This document shows positions 40,055 through 63,009 of a stretch of DNA of 64,000 nt, one piece after another. Below the pieces are notes generated by a model that was not told the origin of the DNA, did not search any database, and was given only the letters and a program-made list of their open reading frames with translations. The DNA is from Phlyctochytrium arcticum (Eukaryota; Chytridiomycota; Chytridiomycetes; Chytridiales; Chytridiaceae), in NCBI GenBank assembly GCA_025602905.1, contig JAHLKI010000001.1, positions 1,488,001 to 1,552,000 of the forward strand. Reading direction: 5' to 3'. Within the stretch, counting starts at the first letter, position 1; each line of letters starts with the position of its first letter. The translations under genes were made by a program, and so were the position numbers.

Positions 40055-40132
40055 CTGTGATAGTGCGCTAGTTCTTTGACCGAATTTTAGTATATACTAA
40101 AATTCGGTCAAAGAACTAGCGCACTATCACAG
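40055..40132. repeat. Perfect 78-bp palindrome, left end of the 23-kb element
   Basis: Begins CTGTGATAGTGCGCTAGTTC, centre TAGTATATACTA, and mirrors without a mismatch. The outer 12 bp and the central 12 bp are identical to those of the right-end palindrome at 62946-63009, but the middle of the arms differs in sequence and length. The inner side is followed by repeated CCAACTAT units (40141-40190), also present inside the right end. Confidence 0.95.
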
Positions 40133-40556
40133 GGCCGGTCCCAACTATACCCAACTATGCGCCAACTATGGGCCAACTATGCGGCAACTGTGAAGCCCGC
40201 TATGTGACCTTATTATAAAGCCGCTTCTCCACTATGTGACCTTATGATAAGGTCGCCCCCATCAAACATCGAGCCATCTTACACATCATGAATCATCCCT
40301 CTCCATATTTCATCGGGTGGTGCCGCTTGTCACGGGAAGGGACTTCCATATTACACCGGTGTAATACGATCTTTACACCGGTGTAATACGCTGATATACG
40401 GGACTTCCAGAAAATTCACAAATTTCTTCTGTCAAAATTTCACACCTTACAAGTCGGCGAAGAATATTCTCGCTACATCCATCATCCATCATCGGGTCGC
40501 CGAAGTATTTTCACTTTGATTTTATTCACATCTCCCCGCTACATGTACAAATATTT

Positions 40557-40907
40557 TTACAGTGATACATCTTCTTCCTGTTTTATATTATCCACTATCT
40601 CCTCCATATCTAATACATTTATCGTTTTCCACCACACATCCGTCTCCACTGTATACTGTTCTTGTAATTCCAATGGTAGAGATTTTCCATCTACTCGCCT
40701 CGTCTTTCTTATATCGAGTCGCAGATGTTTCAATATTCGACCTTTCCTAATCTTTATTTCCGTTATTCCCTTTGCCTTCATGTGTGTCTTGACCTTTTCC
40801 AAGATTGTCGCATGTCGCTTTATCAGTGTTGATGCTTTCCGGTATTCCTCGGAATGTTCCAAGTCTATCAATTCTTCCGCCTTCTTCTCAATAAATGTCG
40901 CTTCCAT
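40557..40907 (-). CDS. Small basic/acidic protein, left-arm copy (116 aa)
   Basis: Starts MEATFIEKKAEELIDLEHSE. It is homologous to the right-arm protein at 62320-62661: KIRKGRILKHLRLDIRKTRR with RVDGKSLPLEL here corresponds to SIKDGNKMKTLFFNIRKMNR with RVDVRSLPMDI there. Helical N-terminus, then a short conserved R-x-V-D-x-x-SLP motif. No known family. Keeping both open frames while diverging suggests selection. It lies in the subterminal region, as small DNA-binding or terminal proteins often do in linear elements; that role is a guess. Confidence 0.6.
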   Translation of the reverse strand: MEATFIEKKAEELIDLEHSEEYRKASTLIKRHATILEKVKTHMKAKGITEIKIRKGRILKHLRLDIRKTRRVDGKSLPLELQEQYTVETDVWWKTINVLDMEEIVDNIKQEEDVSL

Positions 40908-41051
40908 TCTTCTCCTGCGATGATTGATATTGTCGAATGACCTCTCCGCTATGGAGCGGCCTCTTTACGGGACTTTCAAAACCTTTATAACATTCTCTGT
41001 TATCGATATTACGAAATCTCGCAATACTATCAGGATCATCAGGATCATCAG

Positions 41052-41071
41052 GATTATCGATATTACCCCCC
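41052..41071 (+). promoter_or_regulatory. Element-specific intergenic motif, copy 1
   Basis: GATTATCGATATTACCCCCC, identical to the motif at 44639-44658 and near-identical to 45751-45770. It sits upstream of the minus-strand small ORF, preceded by tandem ATCAGG units. A shared regulatory or 3'-end signal of this element. Confidence 0.5.
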
Positions 41072-41149
41072 GATACTGCTATGCCCCTCTGTGTGTCATA
41101 TTTGAATGTCCCGATTCTGCAACTTCTACATATCGATATCATCCCAAAA

Positions 41150-41545
41150 AAAGGTGACACTTTTGGTGACACTTTTGGTGACAGTTTTGGTGACAGTTTT
41201 TTTTACTCCACGTCTCGAGTGAGAGACACTTTTCATTATATATTTCCCTCCATTTTACATGTAGGTGACAGAGATGACAGTTTTTTTGAGGTAAAGTCCC
41301 TGCGGATATAGTTTTTAGACTAATGATAAGTAGTTCACACGTTCTGTGAACTTCTGCTCACTCATAAAAATTCTATACAAAAAATAAACTTACAAAAAAA
41401 CTGTCATTTCTGTCACCTTTTTTTTCCCTTCATAGAAACACTACACAACTTTATTAATAAATTTTTATTTTCCTACATGTATCGAGTGGTGACAGTTTTT
41501 TTTTTACCTGTCACCAAACTGTCACCTTTTTGGAAAAACTGTCAC
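41150..41545. repeat. GGTGACA iteron cluster, left arm
   Basis: Ten exact GGTGACA/TGTCACC heptamers in about 400 bp: four in direct tandem spaced 11-13 bp at 41153-41200, one near 41264, and five between 41400 and 41545 in both orientations, usually followed by a T-run. A smaller cluster lies at the equivalent place in the right arm. The cluster lies directly downstream of the helicase stop codon. Confidence 0.8.
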
Positions 41546-41566
41546 CCCTCTTCATCAATCCCCGAT

Positions 41567-44044
41567 TCACTCATTCTTCCATTCTATCCCTACAAAGTAT
41601 CGAGTCGTCTTTGTTCGTTTCTCCGATACTACCGCTCTCAGTTCTTTGTAAAATGTGTTTCGCTCACAAAGAGTTGTGGATCCAACATTATCGGCCAGAT
41701 ACTTATCGTAGATTGCGGTTCTTTCAATTTTGTCCTCGGGGTTGTTTGTCAATTGGTAAGTCATTTTGAACCATTTCGCAACTGTTAAAGAATTCACCAG
41801 ATTCTTCTTCGTGTACTCATTGACCTCCTCTGGAACTTTTATCGAGAAATCCAAACTTCCATCTTTCTTTACAAACTTTGATTTAAAGAATCTCATTAGT
41901 ATGAGAATAAATGTGTCTCGATATTCTGGAGAGGAGAATAGTTTTTTAAGGTTTGGATTAACTTGACGAACAATTTGTTCATCTTCATCGTCGTCTAATT
42001 CAACGGCCATATCCTCTTCTTCATCATTACATTCTGCAAATGTAACGGTGTAAGGAATCATTTTCGCCGAAAGAGCAATAGCAGTATCGATACGGTCGAA
42101 TTTTGGATCTTCGTTTGTTTGAATATGGAGAGCGCCAGTCATAGGGAACGTAATAGGTTTGCCGTGAAGTGTCCGAACCGGATAAGGGTCATTTCCTCGA
42201 ATGATTTTAATTTCATCAGAAGCAAAAGATTGACCAACTTGAGGTTCAGAAGTAGCGAGGTATCTCTTACCAAAACAGTTAAACATTTGCGCATTTGGGG
42301 CATCACGTTGACCTTTGCTGCGAGTAGTAATATTTTCAGGTTTGATAAAGTAGAAATAAGTGCCAAAGGTAAATGTAATTAGCGTGGTTTCAGCACCTTT
42401 TCCATTTCGGCCACCTCCTTTTTGTACATAAAAGGACTCCTCGACAACCTTTCCATATAGACATCGTACAAGTTGAGCGATACGATAGTCACGTATTTTA
42501 TCGCATGGAAAGATGCTTGCAAAGAATGACGAGATTGCCTCTCTAATCTCCGTAACTTCTCCCCCGCTAGGGAAAGGATACCCGCAAGTGTGCAAAATGT
42601 AATCTTTGGCTTCAAAAGGACGAAACTCTCCTTTGACAAGGTCGTAAACGCCATCGGTGAATGCGAAAAGATGAGGATTTGAAAGAAAGAGTTCGATACA
42701 ATTGTCGTTTTTAATAGATAGTCGATCGACATTTTTAGCCACGTTTCCGGAGAAATCATTCATTTCGATTATTCGTTGAAATTGTTTAAACACATCTCTA
42801 AGGTCGTTGACATTTTGCATATCGTCCTCTGCTTCCTGGATAAGATATTTAAAGGAGGAGACCAAAGTTTCGGCAACTTGGATATTCAAATCACTTTCTC
42901 CAATTGTATCATATTGGCGCCAGATATTGTCTTTCCCGAGGATATAGAGAAATCCGCTTGTATGTTTCATGATACTATCGGCACATTGTTCTTCAATAAA
43001 CCATTTTGCCGCATTGAGATGTGTTGGGGCATAAAGTCGTTTAAAGTCGAAATATTTCCATTTGCCGGATGGTAATTTCCGAAGTTCTTCGAAATTTAGA
43101 TCTTCTTTTTGCTTTTTCTTGGGTGGCTCCTCATCATCATCCTCCTCATCATCTTCTTCCTCCAAAGGTTCATACTTCAAACGGAATTTCTCCAAAAACG
43201 CATCAGATACAACGAGTGGTTTTTCCGCCAGTTTAATATGAATACCACAGTTGTCAAAGACGAATTGTGAACATTCATCAAGTAACTCTTGAGTCATATC
43301 ATGGCCGTCCTGTTTCCTAATCATTCCACCATCAAAGATAAGAGCATCAACCGACCACCCCCTATCGGTAAAGAATTGATCCGTTAAAAGTGTCACTCTG
43401 TTTTCGAGGGTTTGGGTAACTTGTGCGATAAAACTACCTTCGCGATTGCCCTTAATAGTAGCATCCCGGGATGTTCTGACTTTTTCCCAAATGTCGGGAT
43501 ACTCGATTTCTAGAATGGGGCAAAGTGTGGTGTAAATAACTGAGTGTATTTCAGAAAAGAAAGGGTCACTGATTTTGCGCCCAGCGAATAGCATCATGGA
43601 AACGACCTCTTGTTTGTCAATTTTCTTTTCTGTTAAGATAGTAGAGCGATTTTCGACATAGTGAGTTAGAGCATCACAAGTGATAGAATGTTGTTTAAAG
43701 AGATGAGCAATTAAAGTAAATATAGAATTTACTTGGTCTATATCATGATATCGTCCTGCTGCTAGATACTGTCTGAAATGATTATCTCTTGCCTCGAGAT
43801 TCTGAAGAGACAGTCCTCTAGCCCATAATCGGCCAATTTGCTCTAGGCTCCCTTTTTCGGAATAAGCATACTCGGTGCGATAAAGATTTTTTCCAACTTT
43901 GCGATGCTTAAGAGCACGCAAACGGGTCTTCAGTTTGTGTAAAACGAATGGACTCTGAAGACAATATTTGATATGAATGTCATTGATATACTCGAATTTT
44001 TCGAGTGCGGTATCGCTTGATAATTTTGGACAAAAGTCAGACAT
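41567..44044 (-). CDS. SF3 (D5-like) primase-helicase of the 23-kb element
   Basis: 825 codons, intronless. The N-terminal half carries the conserved GRLWARG, RQYLAAGRYHDIDQVN, REGSFIAQVTQTLENRV and VDALIFDGGMI stretches of viral primase-helicases. An acidic Lys/Glu/Pro linker (about residues 285-320) follows. The helicase core has Walker A KGGGRNGKGAETTLI, Walker B region GKRYLATSEPQVG, and motif C ALHIQTNEDPKFDRID with the sensor Asn, in the order of superfamily 3. The C-terminus ends FVGIEWKNE. Likely the replication initiator helicase of the element. The right arm keeps only its last ~31 codons (61676-61768), and a frameshifted paralogue lies at 31.6-33.4 kb. It is divergently arranged with the HTH gene. 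Confidence 0.85.
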   Translation of the reverse strand: MSDFCPKLSSDTALEKFEYINDIHIKYCLQSPFVLHKLKTRLRALKHRKVGKNLYRTEYAYSEKGSLEQIGRLWARGLSLQNLEARDNHFRQYLAAGRYHDIDQVNSIFTLIAHLFKQHSITCDALTHYVENRSTILTEKKIDKQEVVSMMLFAGRKISDPFFSEIHSVIYTTLCPILEIEYPDIWEKVRTSRDATIKGNREGSFIAQVTQTLENRVTLLTDQFFTDRGWSVDALIFDGGMIRKQDGHDMTQELLDECSQFVFDNCGIHIKLAEKPLVVSDAFLEKFRLKYEPLEEEDDEEDDDEEPPKKKQKEDLNFEELRKLPSGKWKYFDFKRLYAPTHLNAAKWFIEEQCADSIMKHTSGFLYILGKDNIWRQYDTIGESDLNIQVAETLVSSFKYLIQEAEDDMQNVNDLRDVFKQFQRIIEMNDFSGNVAKNVDRLSIKNDNCIELFLSNPHLFAFTDGVYDLVKGEFRPFEAKDYILHTCGYPFPSGGEVTEIREAISSFFASIFPCDKIRDYRIAQLVRCLYGKVVEESFYVQKGGGRNGKGAETTLITFTFGTYFYFIKPENITTRSKGQRDAPNAQMFNCFGKRYLATSEPQVGQSFASDEIKIIRGNDPYPVRTLHGKPITFPMTGALHIQTNEDPKFDRIDTAIALSAKMIPYTVTFAECNDEEEDMAVELDDDEDEQIVRQVNPNLKKLFSSPEYRDTFILILMRFFKSKFVKKDGSLDFSIKVPEEVNEYTKKNLVNSLTVAKWFKMTYQLTNNPEDKIERTAIYDKYLADNVGSTTLCERNTFYKELRAVVSEKRTKTTRYFVGIEWKNE

Positions 44045-44815: not shown

Positions 44816-45684
44816 GTACCGCACGGCTCTACAAACTCCAAATCTCATCGAGAATGTGTACAAGAACTTGAAGAAAATAGACGATTCTGTTTGGGCAATT
44901 GGTGAAAGGGCTGAACCAATGAGTGAGATTATCGAAAGATGGGCTCCAATTACATGAAACCGGACAGTACATATTCGAACATTTGGATTCTATTCGCGAA
45001 ATTCAAAAGTCTTTTGACCAACTTATGAAGATTCCCTTGGAGTTTGACGAAGAAGAAGAGGATGAGGCAAGACATCTCTACAATGAAACGGAACTCCTAG
45101 TATTTGATATTGTGGCAAACATTGACTCGGTTTCACCGGACATGTTTAAAAAACCGCCGACACCTACACCAGCACCAACACCAGCACCACTCCCTTCAAC
45201 CCAGCCAGTACTTCAACAAATGCCTGTGCCCGACCCCATACAAGAGATTGAGAATCCACACCCTTCGCCAAGTAAACATGAACTGAAGAAAAGGGAACGT
45301 TTTCAAAAGGAAAGAGAGAGTCTGGTAGACACCATGCGAAATGTTGTCAAATCTTTTAAAATGGATGGACATTACGAGAGCCAGGAGAATTTCAAACGCT
45401 TTTTCTTTCTCAATCTGTCAACACATACAAAATCACGAGGCACCAATAAGAAGATCACCAAAGAATCGGTTTGGAGACTATACGAAACAGTGATGGAAAC
45501 GGACGGATTTGTACAAGTTCATCAGTATTTCTGCAAAGAATGTGACAATTTCTGGAAAAGAGGATGCTGCGATAAGTACAAAAAGTCAACTCGTGGAAAT
45601 CGACTGTGGATTGTCAAGAATGCATGTTTTCCAGACAAGTTTCATGAGCATTGTCGCGAAGGCGCAAAATGGGGAAAATGTTGA
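44816..45684 (+). CDS. Unknown protein with Pro-rich linker and Cys-rich C-terminus, frame interrupted near 44.92 kb
   Basis: The first frame from ATG 44816 (MYRTALQTPNLIENVYKNLK) closes at 44959. The main frame runs on from about 44923 to 45684. Joining needs a frameshift or a very short intron; a GTGAAA...GAAAG intron of 38 nt would fit the phase but is unproven. The main frame has an acidic stretch, a Thr-Pro-Ala linker (TPTPAPTPAPLPSTQP), a basic segment, then HQYFCKECDNFWKRGCCDKY, a possible zinc-binding site. No family recognised. It sits between two copies of the GATTATCGATATTACCCCCC-type motif, suggesting one transcription unit. Confidence 0.5.
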
Positions 45685-45750: not shown

Positions 45751-45770
45751 GATTATCGAGATAACCCCCC
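45751..45770 (+). promoter_or_regulatory. Element-specific intergenic motif, copy 3
   Basis: GATTATCGAGATAACCCCCC, two substitutions from copies 1 and 2, preceded by ATCAGGAACATTAG. It lies between the 3' ends of the unknown plus-strand ORF (45684) and the minus-strand integrase relic, which favours a transcript-end role. Confidence 0.5.
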
Positions 45771-46276
45771 ATCCCCCATAAATCGTGCTTTTGCTTCTGC
45801 CGAAATATTTTCATCACCCCGCTCCATTTCGTTTGGAGAAAACCCTGTTGCTGTTGACTTTACCGAATTGATATTGTCAATAACTGTCTGAAGATTATTA
45901 ACCCATTTTTTATCATTATTTGACCCCATGATTTGATATAACAGACGTTTAATATCGCCTCCTCTTCTCTCAACGTACGCATTACTTTGCGGTCTGGCTA
46001 CTTGTGAATAAAAATGTTTGATTCCACTATCACCGAGTTCCCTTTTGAAGATCTGTTGAAAATACGCGCCTTGATCCGTTTGCATTATTGAGATTTTCTT
46101 TTCTTTCCTTCTCGTCGAGCCTTGTCAAGGCACTTCTTTAATGCTTCGGTCACTTCTTCTTCACTTTCGCCTCTAAGTGGAGCAGCATATCCTTTTAGCG
46201 ACATGGATGAAATGTAAAATGTTGTGTGGATTGTATAAATCAAATGTATTGTGATCTTTCCTATGTAAATGATCAA
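45753..46276 (-). pseudogene. Retroviral-type (rve) integrase, broken fragment
   Basis: Two frames. 46276-46085 gives SLKGYAAPLRGESEEEVTEA. 46085-45753 gives QTDQGAYFQQIFKRELGDSG with the second catalytic Asp, SNAYVERRGGDIKRL with the catalytic Glu, and INSVKSTATGFSPNEM. A frameshift separates them, and the N-terminal zinc-binding region and first Asp segment are missing. A second fragment of the same gene is at 49357-49768. The pattern (short PL segment, D-x35-E, then N-x-P) fits Polinton/Ty3-type integrases. Not functional here. Confidence 0.75.
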
Positions 46277-46581
46277 TTATTCGGTTCAAACTCGTAAATT
46301 GCTTCCCTATCGTCTCCAAAATCTCCAAGCGGAACCCACGAATTGTCTTGTGGGTTGTTATACCCGACCCACTTTACAAGGAATTCGACCCCTTCCTCTC
46401 CAACTACCATGCGAGTACGCTTGTCAATGGTGTAGTCTACCTCGTAATATCCTTCCTGAGTTGGTGGAGGATTGACGGGCTGAGCGGGTAATGGAGTCGT
46501 TTGTGCTGGAACAAGCCGCAAAGTGTATGCTGGAAATAGTCCTTGGAAGGGCGTTTTCCTTGAGAATCTATATGAATGCAC
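46273..46581 (-). CDS. Chromodomain ORF, left-arm copy
   Basis: Starts MHSYRFSRKTPFQGLF. A chromodomain occupies YYEVDYTIDKRTRMV, EEGVEFLVKWVGYNN, NSWVPLGDFGDD and YEFEPNN, with the aromatic cage positions Tyr, Trp and Tyr visible. A near-identical copy lies at 60811-61119 in the right arm. It is probably the C-terminal targeting domain of the element's integrase, now separated from it: it lies 5' of the integrase relic on the same strand rather than 3'. It shares its upstream region with the divergent Crinkler gene. Confidence 0.7.
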   Translation of the reverse strand: MHSYRFSRKTPFQGLFPAYTLRLVPAQTTPLPAQPVNPPPTQEGYYEVDYTIDKRTRMVVGEEGVEFLVKWVGYNNPQDNSWVPLGDFGDDREAIYEFEPNN

Positions 46582-46714
46582 TGTACTGGTTCTAATGCTA
46601 CTGCTCTGTCCGCTCCGCTACGTTTTGATATCTGTGCCACTGACATAAGCCACCTGTGGGGCGCCTGCAGTTGTTGAGTCGATGTTGACGGCAGGCAAAT
46701 TTCAAGAAACAACT
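46582..46714. promoter_or_regulatory. Bidirectional region between chromodomain ORF and Crinkler 1
   Basis: Contains TTTTGATATCTGTGCCACTG, then ACATAAGCCACCTG and CAGTTGTTGA. The same blocks, inverted, lie at 60660-60730 next to the right-arm chromodomain ORF and were upstream of Crinkler 2 before transposon A2 inserted. It is most likely a shared promoter. Confidence 0.6.
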
Positions 46715-48531
46715 ATGGCGACAATCTGGTACCAACTAGTCAATGCAAGCGGAGAGTCGTATACCACCCCAGACAAAGTCTCGCTTCCAAACGCCAACAG
46801 CGACGTTGCGGACCTGCGCGATGCTGTGAAGACAAAGTCGAAGCGGAAGTTGGAGTACTATGATCCAGACGACCTCCTCGTCTACGCCAACGTAGAAGCA
46901 CTCAAGGCCGACAAAGACGAACCCGAACCCAAGCATTCTATCGAAGTTGATAAATCGCTGGCATTGATATTATTGGAAGAAGCAGAAGGCAACTCGGCCA
47001 AGAACCCGCTGCTGATTGTGGTGCCGGATCGAGTTCAGTCGACAACGAGTGGTAAGGGAGGGATTCGACCTTCATTTCATAATACAGTTTCCTAAATTTC
47101 GCTTCTGCTTGAATGGCGCCAGAGGAAATCAGTGGCTTAACAACCGCACTGCAGTCTTTTGCAAGCGCTCAATTGGTTGAAGAATGCATTCAGTCTCAAG
47201 ACCAAACGTTGCTCCCATACCCTCCAGACAAAATCGAAAAACTTTACGTCAGGCAGTGCTATAAAGACGTTTATGAATTGCTCTTGACATCTATTGGTGG
47301 AGACGAGGAATCTTTTGCAATATCTGGGACACCAGGCATCGGAAAGTCACTATTCTTTCTCTACATCTTGTACCGCTTGATGGATGACCTTCGCCCGCAA
47401 ACTCTGCCTTCAAATCCCGAAACTCTGCTTTTCAAGCCGAAGCGGGTTGTTTATCAACAACGCTCCTCGTACATATGCTTTGATTTGCAGCAACAACGCG
47501 TTACCAGCATCACGCAGGCTCAGGCGGGCGCATTGGTTTTTGAACAACATACATTCTACGTTATTGATGGAAAGTCTGCGCCGCTCCTTTCAAAATGTGT
47601 TACACTGTTCATTTCATCTCCCCGTGAAGACTCGTTCAAGGAATTCGTGAAGCAGAAGAAGGCCAAGAAATGGTACTTGCCTGTTTGGACCCTGGCCGAG
47701 TTGCATACTTGTCGGCAGCACTGCTATACGGGCCTCCTCCCTGAAACGCTTCAAGAAAGGCATCGTATCTGTGGTGGAGTCGCTCGCTTTGTGTTTCATG
47801 CGGATTATGTCAATACAGTGGAAACGGAAATAAAAGGTGCTTTGGCTGATGTTGATGCTGTTCGCGGGGTCAAATATGTCGGAGAAACAACAAGGATCTT
47901 TCCACAATCACATGTGCTGATGCACATACTGGTGGGAAATGAGGAGGATGGGAATGCTTACCAGTTTACCGACTTGGATGTGGCGTCAAAGTATATCGGG
48001 GAACAATTGTGGATACGGCATTCTGCCCAAATGCTTACCAATCTGCGGGATATGTTCGGCGGTAGCCCCAACGAGATTTCAAGACATTTGTTTGAGATAT
48101 ATGGACATAGGGTTTTTTCTGTTGGTGGCCGAACTCTCAAATGCAGATGCTTGGAAAGTGGTACCGTTTCCCAAATTGCGTTGAATGCTTTCCATGGCAT
48201 ACGAACTCCGTTTGGATCAAATAGCATCCCTACTGCTGAAAACCTTCCGGGCAAATACTACGAACCAGCAGACGAAGATAATTTTCCAGCAATTGATTCT
48301 CTCAGTTCTCAGGGAATGTTCCAATTCACTGTTGCAGCCGAGCATCCAATTCGCGGGGTTCAAATTTTGCAAACATTGTGCAACTTGTACGACGAACCGA
48401 AACTCTACTTCGTTGTTCCTCGACATCGATTTGCTGCCTTTAAGAAGCAGCCTTTCAAAGCAAAACAGGGCAATCAAGTTGTGAACGAAATCCATGAATT
48501 GAAGCAATATGTTTTGGAACTCCCAGTCTAA
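46715..48531 (+). CDS. Crinkler (CRN) family protein 1 with P-loop NTPase domain
   Basis: Exon 1 (46715-47051) encodes the ubiquitin-like Crinkler header: IWYQLVNASGESYTTPDKVS, DVADLRDAVKTKS and DDLLVYANVEAL, ending NPLLIVVPDRVQSTTS, the counterpart of the HVLVxVP boundary motif. Exon 2 (47123-48531) follows a 71-bp phase-1 intron and encodes a P-loop NTPase (FAISGTPGIGKSLFFLYILY) of the RHS/CRN type, then a C-terminal region ending YVLELPV that may be nuclease-derived. 581 aa. An upstream in-frame ATG (46682) is possible; 46715 aligns with Crinkler 2. Crinklers act as host-targeted effectors in oomycetes and chytrids and are proposed conflict proteins derived from mobile elements. No signal peptide is seen. 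Exact role unknown. Confidence 0.82.
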
Positions 48532-49356: not shown

Positions 49357-49768
49357 AAAAGCCTATAAACACCCGTTCTTCGTACTTGGCCACTTCCACA
49401 TGATTGACGGATTCACAAAAAAGGGATACGCACAACCACTTAGAGGCGAAAGCGAAGAAGAAGTAACGGAAGCATTGAAGAAGTGTTTACAAAAGGCTGA
49501 TGCAGAAGGTAAAAAAGTGTCAAGTAGGCAAACAGATCGAGGCGCACATTTCCAACAAATCTTTAAACAAGAACTCGAAGATCGCGGGGTGAAAGCATTT
49601 CTACAGTCAAGCGGCAAGACCACAATCAAATGCCTTTGTCGAGCGCCGTGGAGGTGATATAAAAAGACAATTATACCAAATCCTGGAGTCAAATGGAGAC
49701 AAAAAATGGGTGAATTATTTGCAAACCGTTGTCGATAACATCAATTCCGTGAAATCTTTGTCAACCGG
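49357..49768 (+). pseudogene. Second fragment of the rve integrase
   Basis: MIDGFTKKGYAQPLRGESEE (first catalytic Asp), VSSRQTDRGAHFQQIFKQEL, then after a frameshift near 49615 AFVERRGGDIKRQLYQILES and VVDNINSVKSLSTGFS. It is homologous to 45753-46276 and preserves the more N-terminal part lacking there. It ends abruptly at GFS where Harbinger sequence begins (49769). Confidence 0.75.
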
Positions 49769-50240
49769 ATTCTCCTTTGGAATGCCCGGGATCAACTACG
49801 ACATCACGGTGTTGGAGAATTCCCACCTTTTCCACGAGTTCCTTCACGATCGTGTGCATGATGTGCAGTTTTATGTGGAGGACACTCTCTTCACCACTCG
49901 TAAGTGGAATGTCTCCATCATCCCATTGGGACTTGATTAACACTATGTAGCGTATTACTTGGTAGACGAAATTTACCCCCCTTGGCCTACCTTGATTTCC
50001 ACCGTCACCCGACCCGTTGATGAAGACCTGAAACTATTTGCGAAGCATCAAGAAGCGGCCCGGAAAGATATTGAACGGGCCTTTGGCGTTTTGCAAATAC
50101 GATGGAATATCCTCCGGCAGCCTTCCCAGTTTTGGGACACGGAAACCATGGCCTTAGTCATCAAAGCAGGCGTCATTCTTCATAACATGATCATCAAGCA
50201 TGAAGGGGAGAGGAGTAGTATAGGTTGGCGGAAACTGTAA
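49769..50240 (+). pseudogene. PIF/Harbinger transposase, C-terminal part
   Basis: Begins FGMPGINYDITVLENSHLFH, continues to DTLFTT, then a 49-bp intron (GTAAGT to TGTAG) joins to YYLVDEIYPPWPTLISTVTR. EAARKDIERAFGVLQIRWNI carries the catalytic Glu, and VILHNMIIKHE is typical of ALP1-like proteins. It ends at 50240. The first catalytic Asp region is missing. It starts within about five residues of where the fragment at 24702-25470 stops, so the two halves complement each other. Confidence 0.82.
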
Positions 50241-54145: not shown

Positions 54146-54166
54146 GGTGATGCTGGATGTCACCGG

Positions 54167-54174
54167 CGATGTCT
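54167..54174. repeat. Target-site duplication of transposon A2, left copy
   Basis: CGATGTCT immediately outside the left CCCAGG terminus (54175). The partner is at 60654-60661, beyond the nested MULE. Confidence 0.9.
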
Positions 54175-54832
54175 CCCAGGACGGACCTCCCAGATATGGT
54201 TAAATGAAGTATAGTCTTTACCCGAAGTTTTTTTTTCTTTCAAGTTTGTATATGAGATTTCTCCCGACTGGCCCGGGATTGCAGTAACGATTTTTAACAA
54301 GTATTTGAAGATGATTTTGTATATGAAGTTCATATGGAAATGATATACAATTTTGTCTTTATCATGTAACATCTGATGTCTTGACCCCCACCTTTTCCAC
54401 AAAGATGTCTCTAACTTTTTTCGCACATCGCCTCGGCGGCTGAAACGTTGAATAGTTGCTGAATATACATATATAAGTCATCTGCCAAGCGGGTTGCTTC
54501 AACACGAAGGTGTTTACGAAGTTCTGGGGCAGGTAAGATCCCCAATAGATAGTATTGATGGGGCAAAGAATGAAATTGTGTTGATACATGATGGTGAAAC
54601 AGAAGAAGAGGGCTGAAAAGTGCTGAAATAAAGGGGACAGATTAAAGTATTTATAAAAGAGTGACAGATTGTGAATGTGAAAGGATGTAAGGGTAGAGAG
54701 AAAGAGATAATGCTTGAAGAATGACCGACCAAATGTGAGGTGGTTGAAGCAGAGGAGTGATGACTTTGAGATCTGGAAGTATCTTTTGTTCAGGAAATGT
54801 GGGAAAGGTAGTTTACAAAGGTAATTCTCACC

Positions 54833-57728
54833 TCATTCTTCGTCATCGCCATCATCGTCTTCCAACTCGACTTCTCCAGATGTGCAAGCCAAATTGGTGA
54901 CCCAACTTTTCCAATGCTTTACGCAAATCTCTTGCATGAGATGCTCACACGGATCTTGCTGGAAAGAATCGCAATGACAGGCGGGAATGATTTTAGAAAC
55001 TGGAGAGTCGACGGTTAGCCACTCTATCTTATCCGGCTTGACTTTTGAAGCGCTCGCGTTTGGCTTCGGCGTAATGTCGCCCAGCGGCTGGCGGTCTTCA
55101 AGGTTCGGGGCATTGGGAGTATTGTCGGCGACTGGTTGGCGGGGTTGGCGGTCTTCGGGCTGCTTGACAAAATCATAGGCACGGTATTCCTCCAGCTTCG
55201 TGATGGAACCAAGGTTTAAATCCGCACTCCAAAAAGGCAAAGGCAGAATTCTCTCTGAGATAAATGCCAAGACCCCAGGAGCCGGTTTTACGAAAGAAAA
55301 AGTTCCATTCTCTTTCCTCCGCTTAGGAGGACTAGCCTCCATGGCGTCGGTGAGACTGTGATCACTCATCAGCTGGTAACCCGGCACGAGCTTTTGCGAG
55401 GCCGAGTGTTGCTTCTCCTTACTGCCTTGAATTGAAAAGCTCCCGTCGACCGCCATGACTCGCTCGAATATTTTGGTGACATACGTGGCCATGGTGGCGA
55501 GCTGTTCATTGTAATAGGTTGCGCGTCCACTTGCTGCGGTACCCCGCGATGCATCGCTGGCAGGAAAGGAGCCCATGAGATGCGAGTGGGCGATGCGCCT
55601 TTCCTTCTCCAGCTTGTTCTGCTTCGCTGCTTCCGCTAAAAACGCGGATGCCCCAATGTCGGATACAGCGGTAATGAACATCGTGTTTACAACAGCGGAG
55701 TTTTCCGAATCATACGGTCTCAAGGCGGCACGAATAACGGAGTGGAAGACTTCCAGATCTTCCGAGCTTGCCCAGGGGAGGAAGCTGCGGAGGGCTCTCA
55801 AAACCTCCTCCTTTTTCATACCCTTGAAGTAATGAAGGTTGCCGAGAATGTATAGGATGATGTTGACATAATTCTTTTTCCCGTATCTGATAAAGAATGG
55901 GAGGAGACGCTTGCAAACATCACGGTATTTTCCCATATCACCAGATGCCATAACATTGCCGGCGTCAAGTGCCATAGGTAGGTCCTCGTCGAAACCGCGC
56001 AGCAATGCCTCTACAAAAGTTCGCTGCACATCTGTCATTTGGTCTTTGCGTGCTTCATACAGTGCCTTCATCTCTTGACGACATTCATTCCAAGCCAAAA
56101 AAATCATCGAGAGAAGCATCACCCGCCTTTCCGGCCTCATTTTAACCACCGAGACAGTGAAATTTGGGAAAGCGGAACCCCAAATGGGCATAAAGAGCCC
56201 AAAGTTCCAAAGAATCAAAGCTATAGACGCTCGGTTAATAATTTGTCAGACCATAAGTCAGTTACCACAAACCTTGCTGTGCATTGAGGGCGATATGCAT
56301 GCCGTCCGGCCACGCGAGCAACGCTGTCCGGAGACTCCGCCCTGGCTGCCCCCAAATGACCTTGAGGACATTGACCCACACGTAGTAGTCCCCTACTACC
56401 CACGTGCATCCGTTTGGGTATTCTCTGACAAAATCCATCATGAGTTGGACCAGAGTTTGGACATCCTGCCAGGTCTTCATCTTATTGGGGACGGCAGCGA
56501 AAATTTTGAAATCTTTCAATTGCGCCGCTTTTGTTGAAAGGTCGAATTGATAAAGTGTTCGAAATTTTCGGTCATCCAAAGACTCCAAAAAGTGGTCAAC
56601 ATAGTTGAGTGATGATGAGTATTGAGTGGATGAGGGCAACGAAGCCAGAACAAAGTCTTCAGCATCAGTTTTGGTGGGATCCGACATGACACTGAAGTCG
56701 ATGTAAGGCTGTTCTGGTCTTGGGAGTGGGGCAAGGGTTTCACCAAAGTTTTCAGAGACATTCGGTGGAGCCTTCTGATAGAATTTGACAGCCAGGTTAG
56801 CCTGGGTGTATGCTTCTGAGAACTTGGAAGTGTTCGCTGATCCCGGGCTTCCTCGAACGCGAACGCGATTAAAATCGTCAAGTTTGAGAATGATCACTTC
56901 CGCACCGCTAGCGACTCTAGCCTCCAAGTCGACCTTGCTCTGATCCACGGTAACTATCATCTTTTTCCGCCAGTGCCTTGGTGCAAATGACAGGTTCAGT
57001 GCAGACAACAGCTCCTTGTCTGTGTCAGTGAGAGATTCGCAGGTGGTGAGAACGTGCTGTTTGACATAATTAATTGAGGATGTATGGTCTAGCAAGCTAG
57101 CAGCCTGCATTGCGATCGCCACCATGATCACGCGCCTTCGTCTACCCAAATCTGTTTTCCATGAAGAGGCCTCAAACCCGAGAAAAGTCGCCATCTTGGT
57201 TGCCAGTTGGTCACAGTTCGAGTCGAGATGATCGATAAACTCCTCCAGACTGGCTGCAAACGGCATTGGAGAGGTGAAAGGGTTTTCGCGTAATAACTTT
57301 GTGGATTCTTTGATGTTGATGGGTTTGGGTTTGGGGGTGGGGGTGGGAGTTGGGAGTGTTGCGACAATGGTAATGGGAGGAGTATCAGTTTGTGTACCGG
57401 CATCAGTGTGGTGGCTCACAGCAGGCTCGTCCTCCACCAATGTCCTTCTTCCGAATCTTTCAGGATGCTGCTCAGCAAAGCTCTTGAAGCATCTGTTACA
57501 GAAGACTGCTTGAAGAATCCAATTCTCCTTGCTATCATAATGCAGCTTCGATCCATGCGATTGTAAAAAGGCAATATCCGAAAGATCACGAACGTAGAAG
57601 TTCCCAGATTCTTTGCACCGACACTTCATACATCCAGCAGCATATAGCACTACCCGCTGTGATTTCCTCTTCACCCTCTTCAGTTCACAGACTCGCGGAC
57701 TATCGAGAATCGCGTCGGTGTCGCTCAT
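54833..57728 (-). CDS. Transposase of element A2, intact (947 aa), DUF6589-like core with SWIM-type finger
   Basis: Exons 57728-56273 and 56220-54833 with a 52-bp intron (GTTTGT to TATAG). TGG is kept where A1 has a stop. N-terminal Cys pairs CMKCRCK and FCNRCF may bind zinc; a Pro-rich linker follows (residues ~115-140). The core has VIILKLDDFNRVRV, WVVGDYYVWVNVLK, WPDGMHIALNAQQ and, across the intron, LILWNFGLFMPIWG. This resembles DUF6589 proteins (D-N near the start, GD, then H with a trailing helix), which I infer to be the catalytic RNase H-like fold. The C-terminal CHC-x8-CEHLM is SWIM-like, and the protein ends in an acidic tail (EVELEDDDGDDEE). The 8-bp duplication and CCCAGG ends go with it. 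Family assignment uncertain; transposase role well supported by structure. Confidence 0.78.
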
Positions 57729-58147
57729 CTTGACTTGCAGCCTGAGGCTTTCGCATACACCGTATGGGCTTGACCTTCGATTCCGAGTTAGAATATAGGC
57801 CCAAAAACAATCTGTGTGAATGCCAATACTTATCTCCAGCTGGCCTCTTGCTCAGGAGCAGCAAAAAAAGAAGGGAAATAATAGCCAATCATGTTCGTTT
57901 GGCACGATGTAACCATTACAAAATGGCGCCAAAGAAGCTTGTACCACAAATGAATCTGATACTCATACTTCTTGTTCAGCGAAATGTCGCGCCGGTAGGC
58001 CATCTTTTGGAGCTTTCCAGTAGCAGCATGCTGGTCAAAGATTCTGGAGAGTGCTTTTGACGCTGGCGGAGATCGCGTATTACCTCAGCAGCGCAGCGCA
58101 ATTATTTCCTTTTTAGTACAGGGTTGATTTAACTAAAGCTGGGAGGT

Positions 58148-58155
58148 CCGCCCTG
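58148..58155. repeat. Target-site duplication of the MULE-like element, left copy
   Basis: CCGCCCTG, part of the right TIR of transposon A2. The partner is at 60644-60651. Confidence 0.9.
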
Positions 58156-60643
58156 GGGAGCGTCTCGGGCGAGGTAATATCCGGTTCCAATCGCTCAGAC
58201 AACCAAGCCACCTCCGGACCGACAGCTCGGTAACAACGTCCAGACCAAGGAATTCGAAATACAAGTTCACAACATATATTGCCAACCAAAAAAGTTTAAA
58301 CTATCTATTCGCTCTTCTATCTTCTATTTCTAGTGCCATTTCCAAACTTGGGTTGTAGTCTGACTAGTATAGCCTTCTAATTGAGCTAAGAATCGTTCCA
58401 TCATCGCTTCAAAAATGGGGTTTGCTTCAAGGTGGTCCTCGAGCTTGAAATGGAAGCTTTGAAGTTGCTCCACAGCTGCCTTTACGCGGGTTTTGCGGTG
58501 GTTCTTCTTGACCTGCGCCGGAGTCACCACAATTTCCCTGACAGGCGCCGTTCCTCGGCCCCAATAAAGCTCAAATCCCGATTCTTCAAAATCTCCAATA
58601 AACCTTTCCCACGCGGCGTCGGTGAAAATGGTCTCCTCCGCGCACATGTCTTGGTGAAAGAGATGGACACACGGGAGCATATACTGGCGGGCAAACATGC
58701 AATTGCAGTCGAGGTTGTCGATTTGGGGCACTGGCTTACCCTTTTCGATGCGAACGGCGACCATCATAATCTGATCGACCACAAGACGTTGTAATGGATG
58801 CGGTAACTTTGCTAGAGCAGGATACTGGGCAGTGTGAGTCAAGCGCTTACGGCGGAACGTGTAATCTTGCTGTGCCGCGTTTTTAGCGTAGCGCTCGTTG
58901 ACATTCACAATAGTTTTGACCGCCCCACAAAGTGTAGCAGTTGGCTTGCCAACATCCTTTAATTGCTTGTGGTAGGACTCGAGAGCGTTGGTCGAGGTTA
59001 TCTGCAGGAGCACTGGCGAATGCTGCCTTGCACCCATCGACCAACATTCAAGATGATCCGTGTTGGTCCAGTTTCTTTTAAGATATGTCGCCATATGTGC
59101 AGGAGCTCCGGCGATTGCTTCGTCGACCAATTGACGGCAACCGAGGCGGGTCCTCTTATTAAGAGCATGCATCATCTTGGCGTATGTCGCACGGTGACTG
59201 GTCAAATGCTTCATAAACGTACGCATGACGTGAACCTGGAATAGTGAGCGTCAGTCTCTCTCCTCGTTAGCCTCTTTCCTGAATGCCACATTAAACAAGG
59301 AAAAAGCATGCCAAACCTTGCAATAATAAATACGGGGTGTTTCTTCACCAGCTGCCATGCCTGGAAAAGCCTTCCGGATGCCAAGGTTCTCAATATGAGA
59401 TTGGTCAATCATCACATTGTTTGGAATCCACTTCTTTCCAGTTTCAGCGAGAACAAGATTTCGCAAGGCATTAAGCCCAGAGTACACACCCTCGCCGTTT
59501 TCACGCTGAGCAAAAAATTGTCCGGCTGGAACCCAAGACCCTGTTTTATTCCGCACCATGCACGTAAATAGCCTCCAGTCCCAGCGGTTCGTCTTGTGGG
59601 TGGAATCCATCAACACAAGATAAATACATTCCTGCAGTACCTTCAATTCTTCTTTTCTGCCAAATGCTAATCCTTCAGTGGCACCAATTTCGTCAGTAGG
59701 GGCAACAAGAAAGCGCTGGGTGACATATCCAGCCTTTTGTAGTTCTTGTTCTGCCTCAACTACATCTGGATCCTGAATTTGCGATTCGGGGTTTGTTTTG
59801 AATTCAGGGTCTCTTCTTTTGGCATTCCAGACAGTTTTAGCTGTCAAAAGATCGACACCCAGTGTCGCGAAATATTGTGGGTCAAATTCCTTGGCAACCA
59901 TTACAGGTAAGACGCCTGCGATTTCCTTGGACTGGTAGGGCTTGAAAGCCTCGCTATTGATGATCTCCTGTGCAGCAGCGCATATTTTGCGTCGATCGAC
60001 GTCTTCCAATGTATGGTGTAAGTGCTTTGTTCCATACTGCGGCTGAAGGTCGACCGAAACCATGGCGGTCTGAGTATCCTCCACAACGCGCAATCCAACG
60101 GGACAATCTATAGGAATGTGAGTCGAAGTTACTCGTCTCTTGATTGAGCCAGTATCATCTTCACGGGGTCCCGAAGAATGAGGCTGTCGCTTCGCTGCCA
60201 TTCGACAGGTGTATATTGTCGTGACTTTAACGGACCTTCTCGTGCCGGCTGATGCTTTCTTGTTGAGTCTAGTCCACATGTTATCCGCCACTTGCCACTG
60301 CTCATCAAACTCTTTCTTGGTCAGTGTAAACTTTGCAGCGGGTTGGTAAAGTCGTTCTCGGACTTCTTTGAGGAGTAAACTGGACTGGGTCATTTTCTTG
60401 AAACAATTGGTTAAATAACAGACCAAAGGCATGTGTTGCTGTAACGTTACCTATGCACAGGACTATTGGCGAATTGTACAATTGCGATGTATCGTGAGAT
60501 CTTAAGAGGCAATGTGTGTCGGAGTCGCTTCGCGCACTTTGAAATTCGCGCACTTTGAAATTTTCGTTTGTTTAGATCTGACCGAGAGGTCGGCTTGTCT
60601 CCCGGCGATTGGAACCGGATATTACCTCGCCCGAGACGCTCCC
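58156..60643 (-). mobile_element. MULE-like transposon (2,488 bp), nested in the end of A2
   Basis: Perfect terminal inverted repeats of 39 bp beginning GGGAGCGTCTCGGGCGAGG, with further similarity inward (AGACAA). Flanked by the perfect 8-bp duplication CCGCCCTG, in the 8-11 bp range typical of Mutator-like elements. It carries a single spliced transposase gene. It sits within the last two bases of A2, so it inserted after A2. Confidence 0.95.
58330..60432 (-). CDS. MULE transposase with SWIM zinc finger, intact
   Basis: Exons 60432-59317 and 59235-58330, joined in phase 0 across an 81-bp intron (GTTTGG to TCCAG); 673 aa. The N-terminus is helical with a basic segment (TTIYTCRMAAKRQPHSSGPR). 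The MULE transposase domain has YLVLMDSTHKTNRWDWRLFT (first Asp), NNVMIDQSHIENLGIRKAFP (second Asp) and YYCKVHVMRTF. A C-terminal SWIM finger, LDCNCMFARQYMLPCVHLFH (CxC-xn-CxH), is the usual MULE ending. All motifs are present in one frame and the TIRs are perfect, so the element may be recently active. The next-nearest A2 transposase also ends in a SWIM-like motif but is otherwise unrelated. Confidence 0.9.
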
Positions 60644-60651
60644 CCGCCCTG
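60644..60651. repeat. Target-site duplication of the MULE-like element, right copy
   Basis: CCGCCCTG, partner of 58148-58155. It is followed by GG, completing the A2 terminus. Confidence 0.9.
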
Positions 60652-60653
60652 GG

Positions 60654-60661
60654 CGATGTCT
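60654..60661. repeat. Target-site duplication of transposon A2, right copy
   Basis: CGATGTCT, partner of 54167-54174, directly after the duplicated CCTGGG end of A2 (60648-60653). Confidence 0.9.
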
Positions 60662-60810
60662 GCCTGCTTTTGGTTTCAACAATTGTCTGCAGGTGGCTTA
60701 TGTCAGTGGCACAGATATCAAAAAGTAGCGCGTGGGCGGCGTGAAAACATCGGTTCTGTACAGAGGGCAGTACTAGAGGCAGTACTAGAGGCAGCACTAG
60801 AACCAGTACA
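60662..60810. promoter_or_regulatory. Displaced promoter of Crinkler 2 / upstream region of right chromodomain ORF
   Basis: Holds the inverted counterparts of the Crinkler 1 upstream blocks (CAGGTGGCTTATGTCAGTGG, CACAGATATCAAAA) followed by tandem GGCAGTACTAGA units (60766-60795). Before A2 inserted, this stretch directly preceded the Crinkler 2 start. Confidence 0.65.
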
Positions 60811-61119
60811 GTGCATTCATATAGATTCTCAAGGAAAACGCCCTCCAGGGACTTTTTCCAGCATACACTTTGCCGGCTTGTTCCAACACAAACGACTCCA
60901 TTACCCGCTCAGCCCGTCAATCCTCCAACAACTCAGGAAGGATATTACGAGGTAGACTACATCATTGACAAGCGAACTCACATGGTAGATGGAGAGGAAG
61001 GGGTCGAATTCCTTGTAAAGTGGGTCGGGTATAACAACCCACAAGACAATTCGTGGGTTCCGCTTCGAGATTTTGGAGACAATAGGGAAGCAATTTACGA
61101 GTTTGAACCGAATAGTTGA
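60811..61119 (+). CDS. Chromodomain ORF, right-arm copy
   Basis: 102 codons, near-identical to 46581-46273 over the chromodomain (YYEVDYIIDKRTHMV, EEGVEFLVKWVGYNN, NSWVPLRDFGDN). The first residues differ because of an indel (KTPSRDFF versus KTPFQGLF). No integrase follows it in this arm. It is either the C-terminal piece of the lost integrase or a free chromodomain protein. Confidence 0.65.
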   Translation: MHSYRFSRKTPSRDFFQHTLCRLVPTQTTPLPAQPVNPPTTQEGYYEVDYIIDKRTHMVDGEEGVEFLVKWVGYNNPQDNSWVPLRDFGDNREAIYEFEPNS

Positions 61120-61375
61120 TCATTTACATAGGAAAGATCACAATACATTTTCTCGTAATAGGATGCATCGGAAAGGAGAAAAAATCGTAAAGTTTCGCCA
61201 TAGGATGCATCGGAAACGAGAAAACATCGGAAAAAATCATCGGTTTAGCAAAAGTCGTTTAAAAGGAGATTAGAGTAAGAAAAAGGTGTTTTAGACACAA
61301 AAAGGCAAAAATGAGAGATTTAACATATGAAAAGTGCCAAACTGCGATGTAAAAGCCGCGAAAATCAATTGTTTC
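61120..61375 (+). repeat. Short tandem GGATGCATCGGAAA repeats and spacer
   Basis: ATAGGATGCATCGGAAA occurs at 61158 and 61200 within GAGAAAA-rich DNA. No gene. The equivalent left-arm position carries the integrase relic instead, so this arm has lost that segment. Confidence 0.5.
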
Positions 61376-61452: not shown

Positions 61453-61675
61453 TGTCGTTCCAGTAAAATGGAGGGAGTCAGATATGTTCCAGGGTAGTTT
61501 GCTCGAAGAATGGAGAGAAAGCAGAAACGGTATTTAGACATATTACAATTGCTAGTTGTTTATAGAGTTTTGTTATCATTCTTTTAACAATTCGCGCCCC
61601 TAGGTCGTTATCGTCTACTATTATAGCAAACCGCATTAACTTAATATATTGCAACAAAAGAAACGGTATTTCGCA

Positions 61676-61768
61676 AGAAACAAATTTTACAAAGAACTCC
61701 GAGCGGTGGTGCCGGAGAAACGAACAAATTCGGCTCGATACTTTGTAGGTATATTATTGAAGAAGTGA
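61676..61768 (+). pseudogene. C-terminal remnant of the SF3 primase-helicase, right arm
   Basis: 31 codons, RNKFYKELRAVVPEKRTNSA then RYFVGILLKK and a stop. It matches the last residues of the left-arm protein (RNTFYKELRAVVSEKRTKTT, RYFVGIEWKNE). Everything N-terminal to it is missing, showing that the right arm once carried the full gene or received only its end in the inverted repeat. Confidence 0.85.
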
Positions 61769-61792
61769 TTGAATCGGGGATTGATGAAGAGG

Positions 61793-62170
61793 GGTGACAG
61801 TTTTGTGGAAAAGGTGACAGTTTTTGTGACAGTTTTTTTTTGTACCTGACACACTCGATACATGTAGGGAAAGTGAAAGTTTATAATAGATTAGTGGTGT
61901 GTTTCTATGGAGTAAAAAAAAAGGTGACAGTTGTGACAGTTTTTTTGTATGTTTATGATTCTTATAAAATTTTATTTTGAGTGAGAGAAAGAATAATGGA
62001 TATTCTTCTTCTCACTAGTCTAAAAACTATATCCCCAGGGACTTTACCTCGAAAAAACTGTCACAACTGTCACCTACATGTAAAGTGGAGGGAAATAGAT
62101 AATAGGAAGTGTCTCTGACTCGAGACGTGGAGTAAAAAAAAGTGTCACGAAAAGTGTCACCTTTTTTTTG
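61793..62170. repeat. GGTGACA iteron cluster, right arm
   Basis: Five exact GGTGACA/TGTCACC heptamers plus several GTGACAG variants, usually next to T-runs, in the same relative position as the left cluster (after the helicase 3' end). TACATGTA-type boxes (61858, 62071) match those at 41260 and 41473. Confidence 0.75.
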
Positions 62171-62319
62171 GGATGACATCGATATCGATATGTCTTATCC
62201 AGAAATGAATTCAGAATGGATATCGATAACAGAGAATGTTATAAAGGATTGAAAGTCCCGTAGGGAGGCCGCTCCATTATCCGAATTATCCGAATCAGAA
62301 TCATCACCACTCGAGAAAG

Positions 62320-62661
62320 ATGGAGCGATTGGAACAACGAGTACTGGACTTTATCAATTTGGACATATCGGAGGAATTCAAAGCAGCGGATAGAATCGTG
62401 AAGAAGCATACAGCGGCTCTGGATTTTATCAAGGAAGAGATGAAGAATTTCGAAATAACCAAGGTGTCAATAAAGGATGGGAATAAAATGAAGACATTAT
62501 TCTTCAACATTCGAAAAATGAACCGAGTGGATGTGCGGTCTTTACCAATGGATATACGAGACGCCCATATGAAGCCGTCAGTTGTATGGATGAGAAATGT
62601 TTCAGTAGAGGAATTGGAGGAAGCCCAAGAATCACTGCCAAAAAGGACAAGATTGGAGTAA
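62320..62661 (+). CDS. Small protein, right-arm copy (113 aa)
   Basis: Starts MERLEQRVLDFINLDISEEF. It is the diverged homologue of the left-arm protein at 40557-40907 (see NIRKMNRVDVRSLPMDIRDA). It keeps a full open frame although the arms differ strongly at the DNA level. Subterminal position, reading outward toward the right palindrome. Function unknown. Confidence 0.6.
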   Translation: MERLEQRVLDFINLDISEEFKAADRIVKKHTAALDFIKEEMKNFEITKVSIKDGNKMKTLFFNIRKMNRVDVRSLPMDIRDAHMKPSVVWMRNVSVEELEEAQESLPKRTRLE

Positions 62662-62945
62662 AGGCTTTTAATAAATCGTTGTAATAAATCGTTGTAATAA
62701 ATCGTTGTAACAAATTGAAAGTCCCGTAAATGAGCGTATTACACGGTGTAATGAGCGTATTACACCGGTGAAGACTTGTAAATGGGGCGAAGAATATTCT
62801 TCGCCGACTTGTAAGGTGTGAAATTTTGACAGAAGAAATTTGTGAATTTTCTGGAAGTCCCGTACACAGCGTATTACACGGTGTAAAGCCCGGTGTAAAG
62901 TCCGGTGTAATGTGGCCCATAGTTGGCCCATAGTTGGAATCTCCC

Positions 62946-63009
62946 CTGTGATAGTGCATAACCAAATCCCATAGTATATACTATGGGATTTGGTTATGCA
63001 CTATCACAG
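62946..63009. repeat. Perfect 64-bp palindrome, right end of the 23-kb element
   Basis: Begins CTGTGATAGTGCATAACC with core TAGTATATACTA, mirrored without mismatch. Outer and central 12-mers are as in the left palindrome; the intervening 14 bp per arm share no sequence with the 21+ bp of the left one. Confidence 0.95.

Follow-up and report, generated by a model that had tools for sequence, protein, structure and literature searches.

Polinton-like viruses are known as integrated elements in chytrid fungi, among them a Spizellomyces punctatus group, and some integrated relatives carry terminal inverted repeats and target duplications of 5–7 bp, as described in passages of Bellas and Sommaruga 2021 (PMC7805220). 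Here we analyse a 64,000-nucleotide stretch (the window, C1:1488001-1552000) of the 31.5-Mb, 91-contig genome of the chytrid Phlyctochytrium arcticum, in which positions 40055–63009 are bounded by two palindromes, together with other elements of this genome that have ends of the same kind. C-numbers denote contigs of this genome and L-numbers the loci that were fetched for reading. We propose, with a probability of roughly 0.6, that the palindromes are the tips of integrated chytrid Polinton-like viruses whose free genome would be linear, with hairpin tips used in replication and insertion. The assignment of the element family to Polinton-like viruses is firm, and the hairpin mechanism, read back from integrated copies, is likely though unproven.

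Like the S. punctatus group, the P. arcticum elements are integrated in a chytrid genome, and their capsid is 68% identical to SPPG_02195; unlike the repeats reported there, those of P. arcticum end in palindromes, and the main text of PMC7805220 uses neither 'palindrom' nor 'hairpin'. The hexon of the MELD viruses (GenBank third-party records, e.g. Powellomyces chytrid fungus MELD virus 5) is 66% identical to the capsid encoded on C17. The double-jelly-roll capsid, retroviral-type integrase and packaging ATPase are shared with the Maverick/Polintons as presented in sections of PMC11071308, whereas no protein-primed polymerase lies inside the bounded elements studied here and their tips are hairpin-like; the duplications are of 5 bp, cf. 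the 6 bp that a passage of PMC12220804 gives as typical of Maverick/Polintons. Fusions of TVpol with a helicase are known in Polinton-like viruses from parts of PMC4642659. Palindromic tips are unmentioned in the word-searched portions of the virus papers, 'hairpin' occurring only in a reference title of PMC11071308, and our literature searches turned up no account of such ends, with some papers pairing 'hairpin' with 'virophage' (PMC7031253, PMC6723459) falling outside that check.

Throughout, the 14 bounded elements are the set used for placing capsid and protein-primed polymerase genes. Terminal hairpins with flip and flop forms are characteristic of parvoviruses and poxviruses; the gene set of those viruses is unrelated to the one described here, where the tips are read as duplex palindromes in proviruses and the two ends are concordant in five of six elements. 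Telomere-resolvase systems (N15, Borrelia) have a palindromic site that yields hairpin ends, and the palindromic sites here would do likewise, but no resolvase was identified and the tips can be asymmetric.

Palindromic ends across the genome

An earlier note on this DNA, made from its letters alone, had described perfect palindromes of 78 and 64 bp sharing an outer motif and a core; both are present as described, and in each of them CTGTGATAGTGC is the outer motif and TAGTATATACTA the core. When folded as single strands they gave z-scores of -21.0 (40055–40132) and -15.1 (62946–63009), with 0 of 200 shuffles equally good for each. The search of the assembly proposed in that note uncovered a whole class of such ends, built of TGTSAYAGTGC, a variable stem, a tip and then the mirror image. 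The pattern TGTSAYAGTGC-N18-48-GCACTRTSACA occurs at 116 genome sites (68 of them of the SACAGTG kind) and the control pattern at 0, and the core is found 51 times vs 8 times for its reversed control, all controls being counted in the same genome. TGTSAYAGTGC and its mirror stand on both sides of the core at 47 of 50 fetched core places, the exceptions being two places at the ends of contigs and a rearranged copy on C22. The type of palindrome at 40055–40132 recurs on C22 and C44, and the arm sequence of that at 62946–63009 in 11 of the 53 palindromes of fetched loci (itself counted). Longer palindromes exist beyond the pattern, e.g. at C17:4304-28126, an element with 102-bp palindromes at both ends.

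Helicase copies without such palindromes at their boundaries would, by the earlier note, count against its reading, and most copies of the window helicase lie beside these ends. Among 16 loci with at least 80% identity (short relics excluded), 12 have a palindrome within ~2 kb, in each case with the helicase on the element side of it. On C16 a half palindrome was matched at 1.5 kb, on C67 and in C4-old (C4:1116997) a palindrome lies at 5.5 and 8.3 kb, respectively, and on C24 a palindrome-ended insertion interrupts the helicase, whose own element end is not visible.

Target duplications were scored on 20 facing end pairs with palindromes, and 14 of these pairs have exact 5-bp duplications directly outside TG...CA, all 14 different. 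A first scripted set gave 7 of 12 facing pairs (C2 GTGCC, C3 CATAG, C4-A TTGTG, C4-old CAGAA, C13 AACCT, C32 CTGAC and C42 GCCAT), with 0.03 expected by chance over the 34 ordered pairs compared; the left end of C4-A and the right end of C4-B were also matched by the script and were excluded from the count. A second scripted set gave 4 of 5 (C10 CAGAC, C44 GAGGA, C25 GAGAG and C7 ACAGA), and three duplications were seen by eye (C17 TACTA, C13 outer TGGTT and C58 GAGCC), the last being weaker as its flank is a tandem repeat. Terminal inverted repeats of 1.1–2.3 kb are present in C3, C4-A, C4-B, C4-old, C6 and C13; none was found in C2, and C5 has short blocks only. Inverted repeats and short target duplications, both traits of Polinton-like viruses, are therefore found among these elements.

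The two arms of the palindromes are nearly always identical. Arms are perfect in 48 of the 53 palindromes of fetched loci, which comprise 16 distinct perfect arms; the five imperfect palindromes belong to C4-old (two), C25, C45 and C22 (one each), with a single mismatch at C4:1108570, C25 and C45 and indels at C4:1158961. Stems of the SACAGTG kind are perfect at 67 of 68 sites, measure 20–33 nt around a centre of 0–7 nt and come in 29 sequences, including the imperfect one. The left and right inverted repeats of C3, C4-B, C13 and C42 differ by 1.3–6.6%, and these same elements have 0 mismatches in 243 arm pairs vs 9.3 expected if the arms were drifting likewise (P = 7e-5). In the C42, C5 and window pairs the palindrome at one end differs from that at the other, and both are perfect; that the palindromes of C42 are different yet individually perfect therefore points to copying within an end. 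The C2 helicase match has stops yet its palindromes are perfect, and decay is therefore not uniform.

Non-palindromic centres are common (CTT/AAG, GTT/AAC, CTTACA, GAGTT and TTAT), as expected of the unpaired tip of a hairpin; GTT/AAC occurs in two stem families that together number 10 sites. The tip occurs in both orientations relative to the interior in all five stem families with at least two oriented elements. The clearest case is C11 vs C49, with CTT and AAG, respectively, between the same stem and interior; the other families are C58/C30, C10/C20, C86 vs C84, C29 and C27, and C7:618069 vs C44, C15:204077 and C85, the last of which is not independent as it repeats the right flank of C44. 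The look of fused or resolved hairpins that the earlier note had ascribed to the ends is thus supported by covarying perfect arms, non-palindromic tips and flip/flop forms.

We consider it unlikely that the terminal palindromes are no more than sites, present in duplicate, for the binding of an integrase or replication initiator, kept symmetric through selection or cruciform repair, while the free ends are open or closed into a circle. Such sites would explain the presence of TGTSAYAGTGC in both halves in opposite orientation, the common tip orientation of the two ends of one element (as in simple inverted repeats) and the two perfect palindromes kept by C2 beside a helicase with stops; however, the 29 stem kinds covary over their whole length, beyond the motif, and tips invert between elements. 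The palindromes of some old copies are asymmetric (C4:1108570, C25, C45 and C4:1158961), the C4-old helicase and the C25 integrase carrying stops, and the chromosome therefore does not always maintain symmetry.

Some palindromes lie in particular settings. Contigs C5 (end 1444034) and C22 (end 445938) terminate inside a palindrome arm, which suggests that palindromes stop assembly. Palindromes with a GTT/AAC tip occur near several contig ends, some in duplicated blocks (e.g. C7:801 and 1690; C23:433192 and 434081), and are possibly subtelomeric. On C23, a pair of palindromes separated by 0.9 kb, which is repeated on C7, was considered as a mini-element and rejected, as the flanks differ and the repeat-like sides face outward. 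The host sequences on the two sides of the palindrome-ended element at C6:103483-127749 form an inverted repeat, at 99.9% over at least 4.88 kb, and the 25 bases to the left of this element also stand to the left of C15:729592. Short elements with palindromic ends and 5-bp duplications were found at C25:139557-141303 (~1.7 kb) and C7:648173-652802 (~4.6 kb), and the outer element at C13:606105-628141 measures ~2.9 kb without the 19-kb C13 element nested in it; such short elements are probably mobilised in trans.

Genes between the ends

The C4-B element (900741–925880; its pieces were read separately) encodes a primase-polymerase-helicase, a conserved open reading frame (ORF) of 340 aa and a retroviral-type integrase with a chromodomain (rve E 2e-13, Chromo E 7.9e-14). 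It also has an HNH-AP2 ORF, a capsid gene that is broken, a penton-like ORF, a packaging ATPase of the A32/FtsK type (Pox_A32 PF04665 E 5.8e-10, L055:6984-7691) and fibre-like ORFs (match to the N-terminus of the avian adenovirus fibre, E 1.9e-5). Cargo near its right end includes an F-box protein (L013:2618-3022, E 3e-4) and an ORF that by eye is receiver-domain-like (L013:2141-2572). The C17 element has ATPase, penton-like ORF, open capsid gene, integrase and 340-aa ORF between 15800 and 22000, in the same order as C4-B; its penton-like ORF (L083:821-1606) was assigned by eye, lies within the capsid gene cluster and has no Pfam match.

On its predicted structure, the C17 capsid gene product (L083:2270-3517) is a double-jelly-roll capsid protein. 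The model reached a predicted local distance difference test (pLDDT) score of 77.1 and a predicted template modelling score of 0.77, and Foldseek matched it to capsids of PBCV-1 (E 4.7e-15), Sputnik (1.4e-11) and mavirus (2.3e-10), and also of an iridovirus and phage PR772; Pfam gave Capsid_N only, at E 0.017, below its cut-off. Beyond the host, its closest proteins are from other chytrids or unnamed sources, one being labelled as the hexon from a Powellomyces MELD virus. Of the 14 bounded elements, 5 contain capsid matches (C3, C4-A, C4-old, C17 and C44), and the bounded elements without one are decayed, short or carry other genes.

Three replication-protein architectures stand between ends of the same kind (L012:645-3197, L023:6868-9348 and window 41567–44044). 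The C4-A protein combines an AEP Prim-Pol domain (PF09250, E 6.9e-20) with D5_N (E 4.5e-11), the C4-B helicase is of the D5_N type of the window at 92% identity, and that of C13 is DUF5906; replication modules are thus swapped between elements with same-kind ends. Homologues of the window-type helicase occur in other chytrids, and its putative TV-Pol part has, in an alignment, invariant Arg and Asp positions that were compared with the description in a portion of PMC2579912, its RxxxK motif being inexact. Protein-primed family B polymerase (PF03175) has 14 matches in the genome, 0 of which are inside the 14 bounded elements.

The conserved ORF of ~340 aa (L055:1172-2197, + strand; L083:4974-5999, - strand) is rare, with 14 matches at 13 genome loci (the capsid piece, for comparison, has 47 matches), and 9 of the 13 loci are inside or beside palindrome-ended elements. 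This distribution would suit a telomere resolvase as in N15 or Borrelia, i.e. a tyrosine-recombinase-like protein that would cleave the palindrome of head-to-head dimers and reseal the ends as hairpins, and by eye the C-terminus of the ORF resembles a tyrosine recombinase, a likeness that is unproven. We regard a resolvase as distinctly improbable: the ORF has no Pfam support, its AlphaFold model failed (pLDDT 36.8), the window has no match to it, and asymmetric tips of 3–7 nt would seem ill-suited to a symmetric cut.

Virus genes also occur as mirror pairs with exact centres (C10:1765-24523, C18, C40, C24, C9 and C1:1326219-1341732), as if they were inverted dimers or very long inverted repeats, and the C10 element with duplication CAGAC has mirror-placed helicase matches. 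We rejected inverted dimers as proof of hairpin replication, since 6 of 7 fetched centres have no mirror arms in 1.4–1.5 kb; the seventh, on C24, has arms of 645 bp placed 97 bases apart.

In IMG/VR no relatives were found by alignment of helicase, ATPase or capsid, the core palindrome pattern occurred in 17 contigs, none within a palindrome >30 bp, and the end pattern gave 0 and 2 contigs. The two (L114:3165-3211 and L115:5433-5479) have 13-bp arms TGTCATAGTGCTA around a 21-base spacer, a recombinase-site-like arrangement that is probably coincidental, and were judged unrelated.

Composite structure of the window

The features of positions 40055–63009 are collected in Table 1. The earlier note had read them as a single 23-kb element and knew of no described element that combines SF3 helicase, chromodomain and Crinklers with such ends. 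Its inverted repeats, D5-type (SF3) helicase, short direct repeats and chromodomain are all present, and its Crinklers are weak: the PF20147 header match (E 0.12) corresponds to ORF 46682–47095, and a Pfam search of ORF 53666–54163 for a Crinkler header gave no match.

Table 1. Features of the palindrome-bounded stretch and its right flank (window positions)
Feature	Position	Strand	Details
Left terminal palindrome	40055–40132		78 bp, perfect, arms of 39, no spacer; TG...CA boundary 40056–40131
Left terminal inverted repeat	40133–41661		Inverted arm 40397–41661; short direct repeats D1–D11; 82–96% identical blocks
Primase-polymerase-like domain fused to D5/SF3 helicase	41567–44044	-	825 aa, open frame; PF08706 E 1.4e-8
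ORF common to palindrome-ended C5 element	44923–45684	+	Clustering; no Pfam match <0.01
Broken retroviral-type integrase-core remnant	45753–46213	-	rve_3 E 0.0026
Chromodomain ORF	46273–46617	-	PF00385 E 7.2e-7; overlaps inverted pair with 60690–61150 (arms I1, I10, I11)
Crinkler-like ORF pair, weak header and P-loop body	46682–48531	+	PF20147 E 0.12; RHSP P-loop E 0.018
Second broken integrase-core remnant	49388–49775	+	rve E 2.1e-4
Second Crinkler-like ORF pair	52264–54163	-	nSTAND3 E 0.0063; header by eye only; region 97% like C45
Host transposon, DUF6589-type ORFs, inserted in element	54172–58165	-	DUF6589 E 3.3e-4, below its cut-off
Host MULE-type transposon, 40-bp inverted ends (I12), inserted	58154–60655	-	MULE E 5.9e-6, just below its cut-off
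Helicase C-terminus relic	61574–61762	+	C1:1549574-1549762, 46%; inner edge of right inverted repeat
Right terminal inverted repeat	61677–62945		Inverted arm 61677–62864; outer part identical to C42 right end
Right terminal palindrome	62946–63009		64 bp, perfect, arms of 32, no spacer; type unlike left
Host flank common to C42 element's right side	63010–63305		Begins with C42 target duplication GCCAT

A single new element joining SF3 helicase, chromodomain and Crinklers has very little probability, even though all parts are in the window (the Crinklers weakly) and portions of the Crinkler-like stretches are also found on C79, C26, C45 and C24 and within the C42 element, the region of the first pair being 89–91% like C79 and C26. 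The five bases outside the two ends of the stretch differ (ACGAC on the left vs GCCAT on the right), leaving no target duplication, and the right 355 bases of the stretch together with 296 bases of host flank are identical (651/651) to the right end of the C42 element. Because that 32.5-kb element has its own left end with the matching GCCAT duplication, the left end of the stretch is from another insertion. Two host transposons are nested in the stretch, one of ~4 kb that is repeated at 98–100% and one of 2.5 kb that is repeated at 96–99% elsewhere in the genome. Relatives with the same ends are Polinton-like viruses carrying the genes of that group, in which a chromodomain forms the tail of the integrase. 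Remnant 45753–46213 (C1:1533783-1534213) is 72–73% identical to the C4 integrase. Searches with the capsid piece and the ATPase gave no match in the window, and the integrase search found remnants only. Judged from these sequence comparisons, the stretch is composite and represents neither a virus copy nor one intact element, and its Crinkler-like genes are cargo.

The possibility that the palindromes are artefacts of long-read assembly, suggested by the two contigs that end in an arm (C5 and C22) and by the 4.9-kb inverted flanks at 99.9% on C6, can be dismissed almost entirely because such ends are present at 116 sites and in 14 of 20 pairs are directly abutted by exact duplications, whereas artefactual inverted reads would ignore a sequence boundary, and some damaged copies are imperfect.

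Elsewhere in the window, the 4-kb DUF6589-type transposon inserted in the element is present a second time at positions 12226–16208, positions 31817–33313 hold pieces of a second, more distant D5-type helicase (29–42% identity) and are the remains of another virus-like element, and a long gypsy-type retroelement ORF (gag to chromodomain, 34612–40041) lies directly outside the left palindrome.

A proposed role of hairpin tips in replication and insertion

In the mechanism that we propose, the free genome would be linear, with hairpin tips that are each half a palindrome long, so that the strand of the left tip would run from the interior through TGTSAYAGTGC, the stem and the tip and back to ...GCACTRTSACA. 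The element-encoded integrase would nick each tip at the base of the stem, between ...ACA and the interior (often GGGG...), and the CA-3' end thus freed would be joined to target DNA with a 5-base stagger; a CA-3' end is the chemistry expected of a retroviral-type integrase. Gap filling by the host would then copy the hairpin strand of ~60 nt into a duplex palindrome and generate the 5-bp duplication, the outcome being a full palindrome that ends in TG...CA beside a 5-bp duplication, as seen. In replication, the folded 3' end might prime synthesis, or the genome might be copied as a dumbbell in the form of a single-stranded circle. Copying through a hairpin would keep the arms identical and invert the tip, and a primase-polymerase-helicase without a protein-primed polymerase would thereby be able to copy the ends.

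Several findings weigh against hairpin tips. The free DNA form was not seen, as everything was read from proviruses, and a dedicated nickase or resolvase was not found, the 340-aa candidate not having folded confidently. No exact duplication was found in 6 of the 20 pairs, namely the window, C4-B (flanks TGGTG/TTGTG, in which 4 of 5 bases match), C5, C6 (where the two flanks form an inverted repeat), C44:78539-82619 and C8; C15:186997-204123, with a left palindrome that has no recognisable repeat, likewise lacks a match and would bring the count to 14 of 21 if included. The palindromes at C29:40270, C15:186997, C26:144573 and C6:97321 have neither a recognisable inverted repeat on either side nor a flanking duplication, and 9 of the 14 bounded elements are without a capsid match.

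The tips themselves supply further points of this kind. In four of the five flip/flop families the tips differ at one A/T position only and could thus have arisen by one substitution, and only C11/C49 would need three substitutions if it were not an inversion. Moreover, the two ends agree in tip orientation in 5 of 6 duplication-bounded elements with asymmetric tips, the sixth (C13 outer) having A at one end and C at the other. Independent flipping of the parvovirus type predicts that half would be concordant, and 5 of 5 would arise by chance with a probability of 0.03, on small numbers. Flip and flop forms of an asymmetric tip were thus found between elements, and independent flip and flop at the two ends of one element was not. 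Concordant tip orientation therefore needs either coupled inversion or, as a rival account, homogenisation of the inverted repeats.

A more specific version, to which we hold only tentatively, is that a dumbbell genome is copied by the primase-polymerase-helicase as a single-stranded circle, its hairpin telomeres serving as the substrate of the integrase and turning into duplex palindromes upon insertion; integrating eukaryotic DNA viruses of this sort were not met in the literature searched. The complementary circle of a dumbbell has both tips inverted, and this version would therefore explain the concordant inversion.

As 116 palindromes are found by one pattern, including short elements with duplications, the idea of hairpin tips is directly testable in the fungus. 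Polintons rely on a protein-primed polymerase for copying their ends. How ends are copied in Polinton-like viruses and virophages that have only a primase-polymerase-helicase is not explained in the literature passages checked, and hairpin tips, if true, would give a simple answer. They would also mean that the integrase acts on a hairpin, not on an open end, and would provide a link in lifestyle between this branch of viruses and the hairpin-ended viruses.

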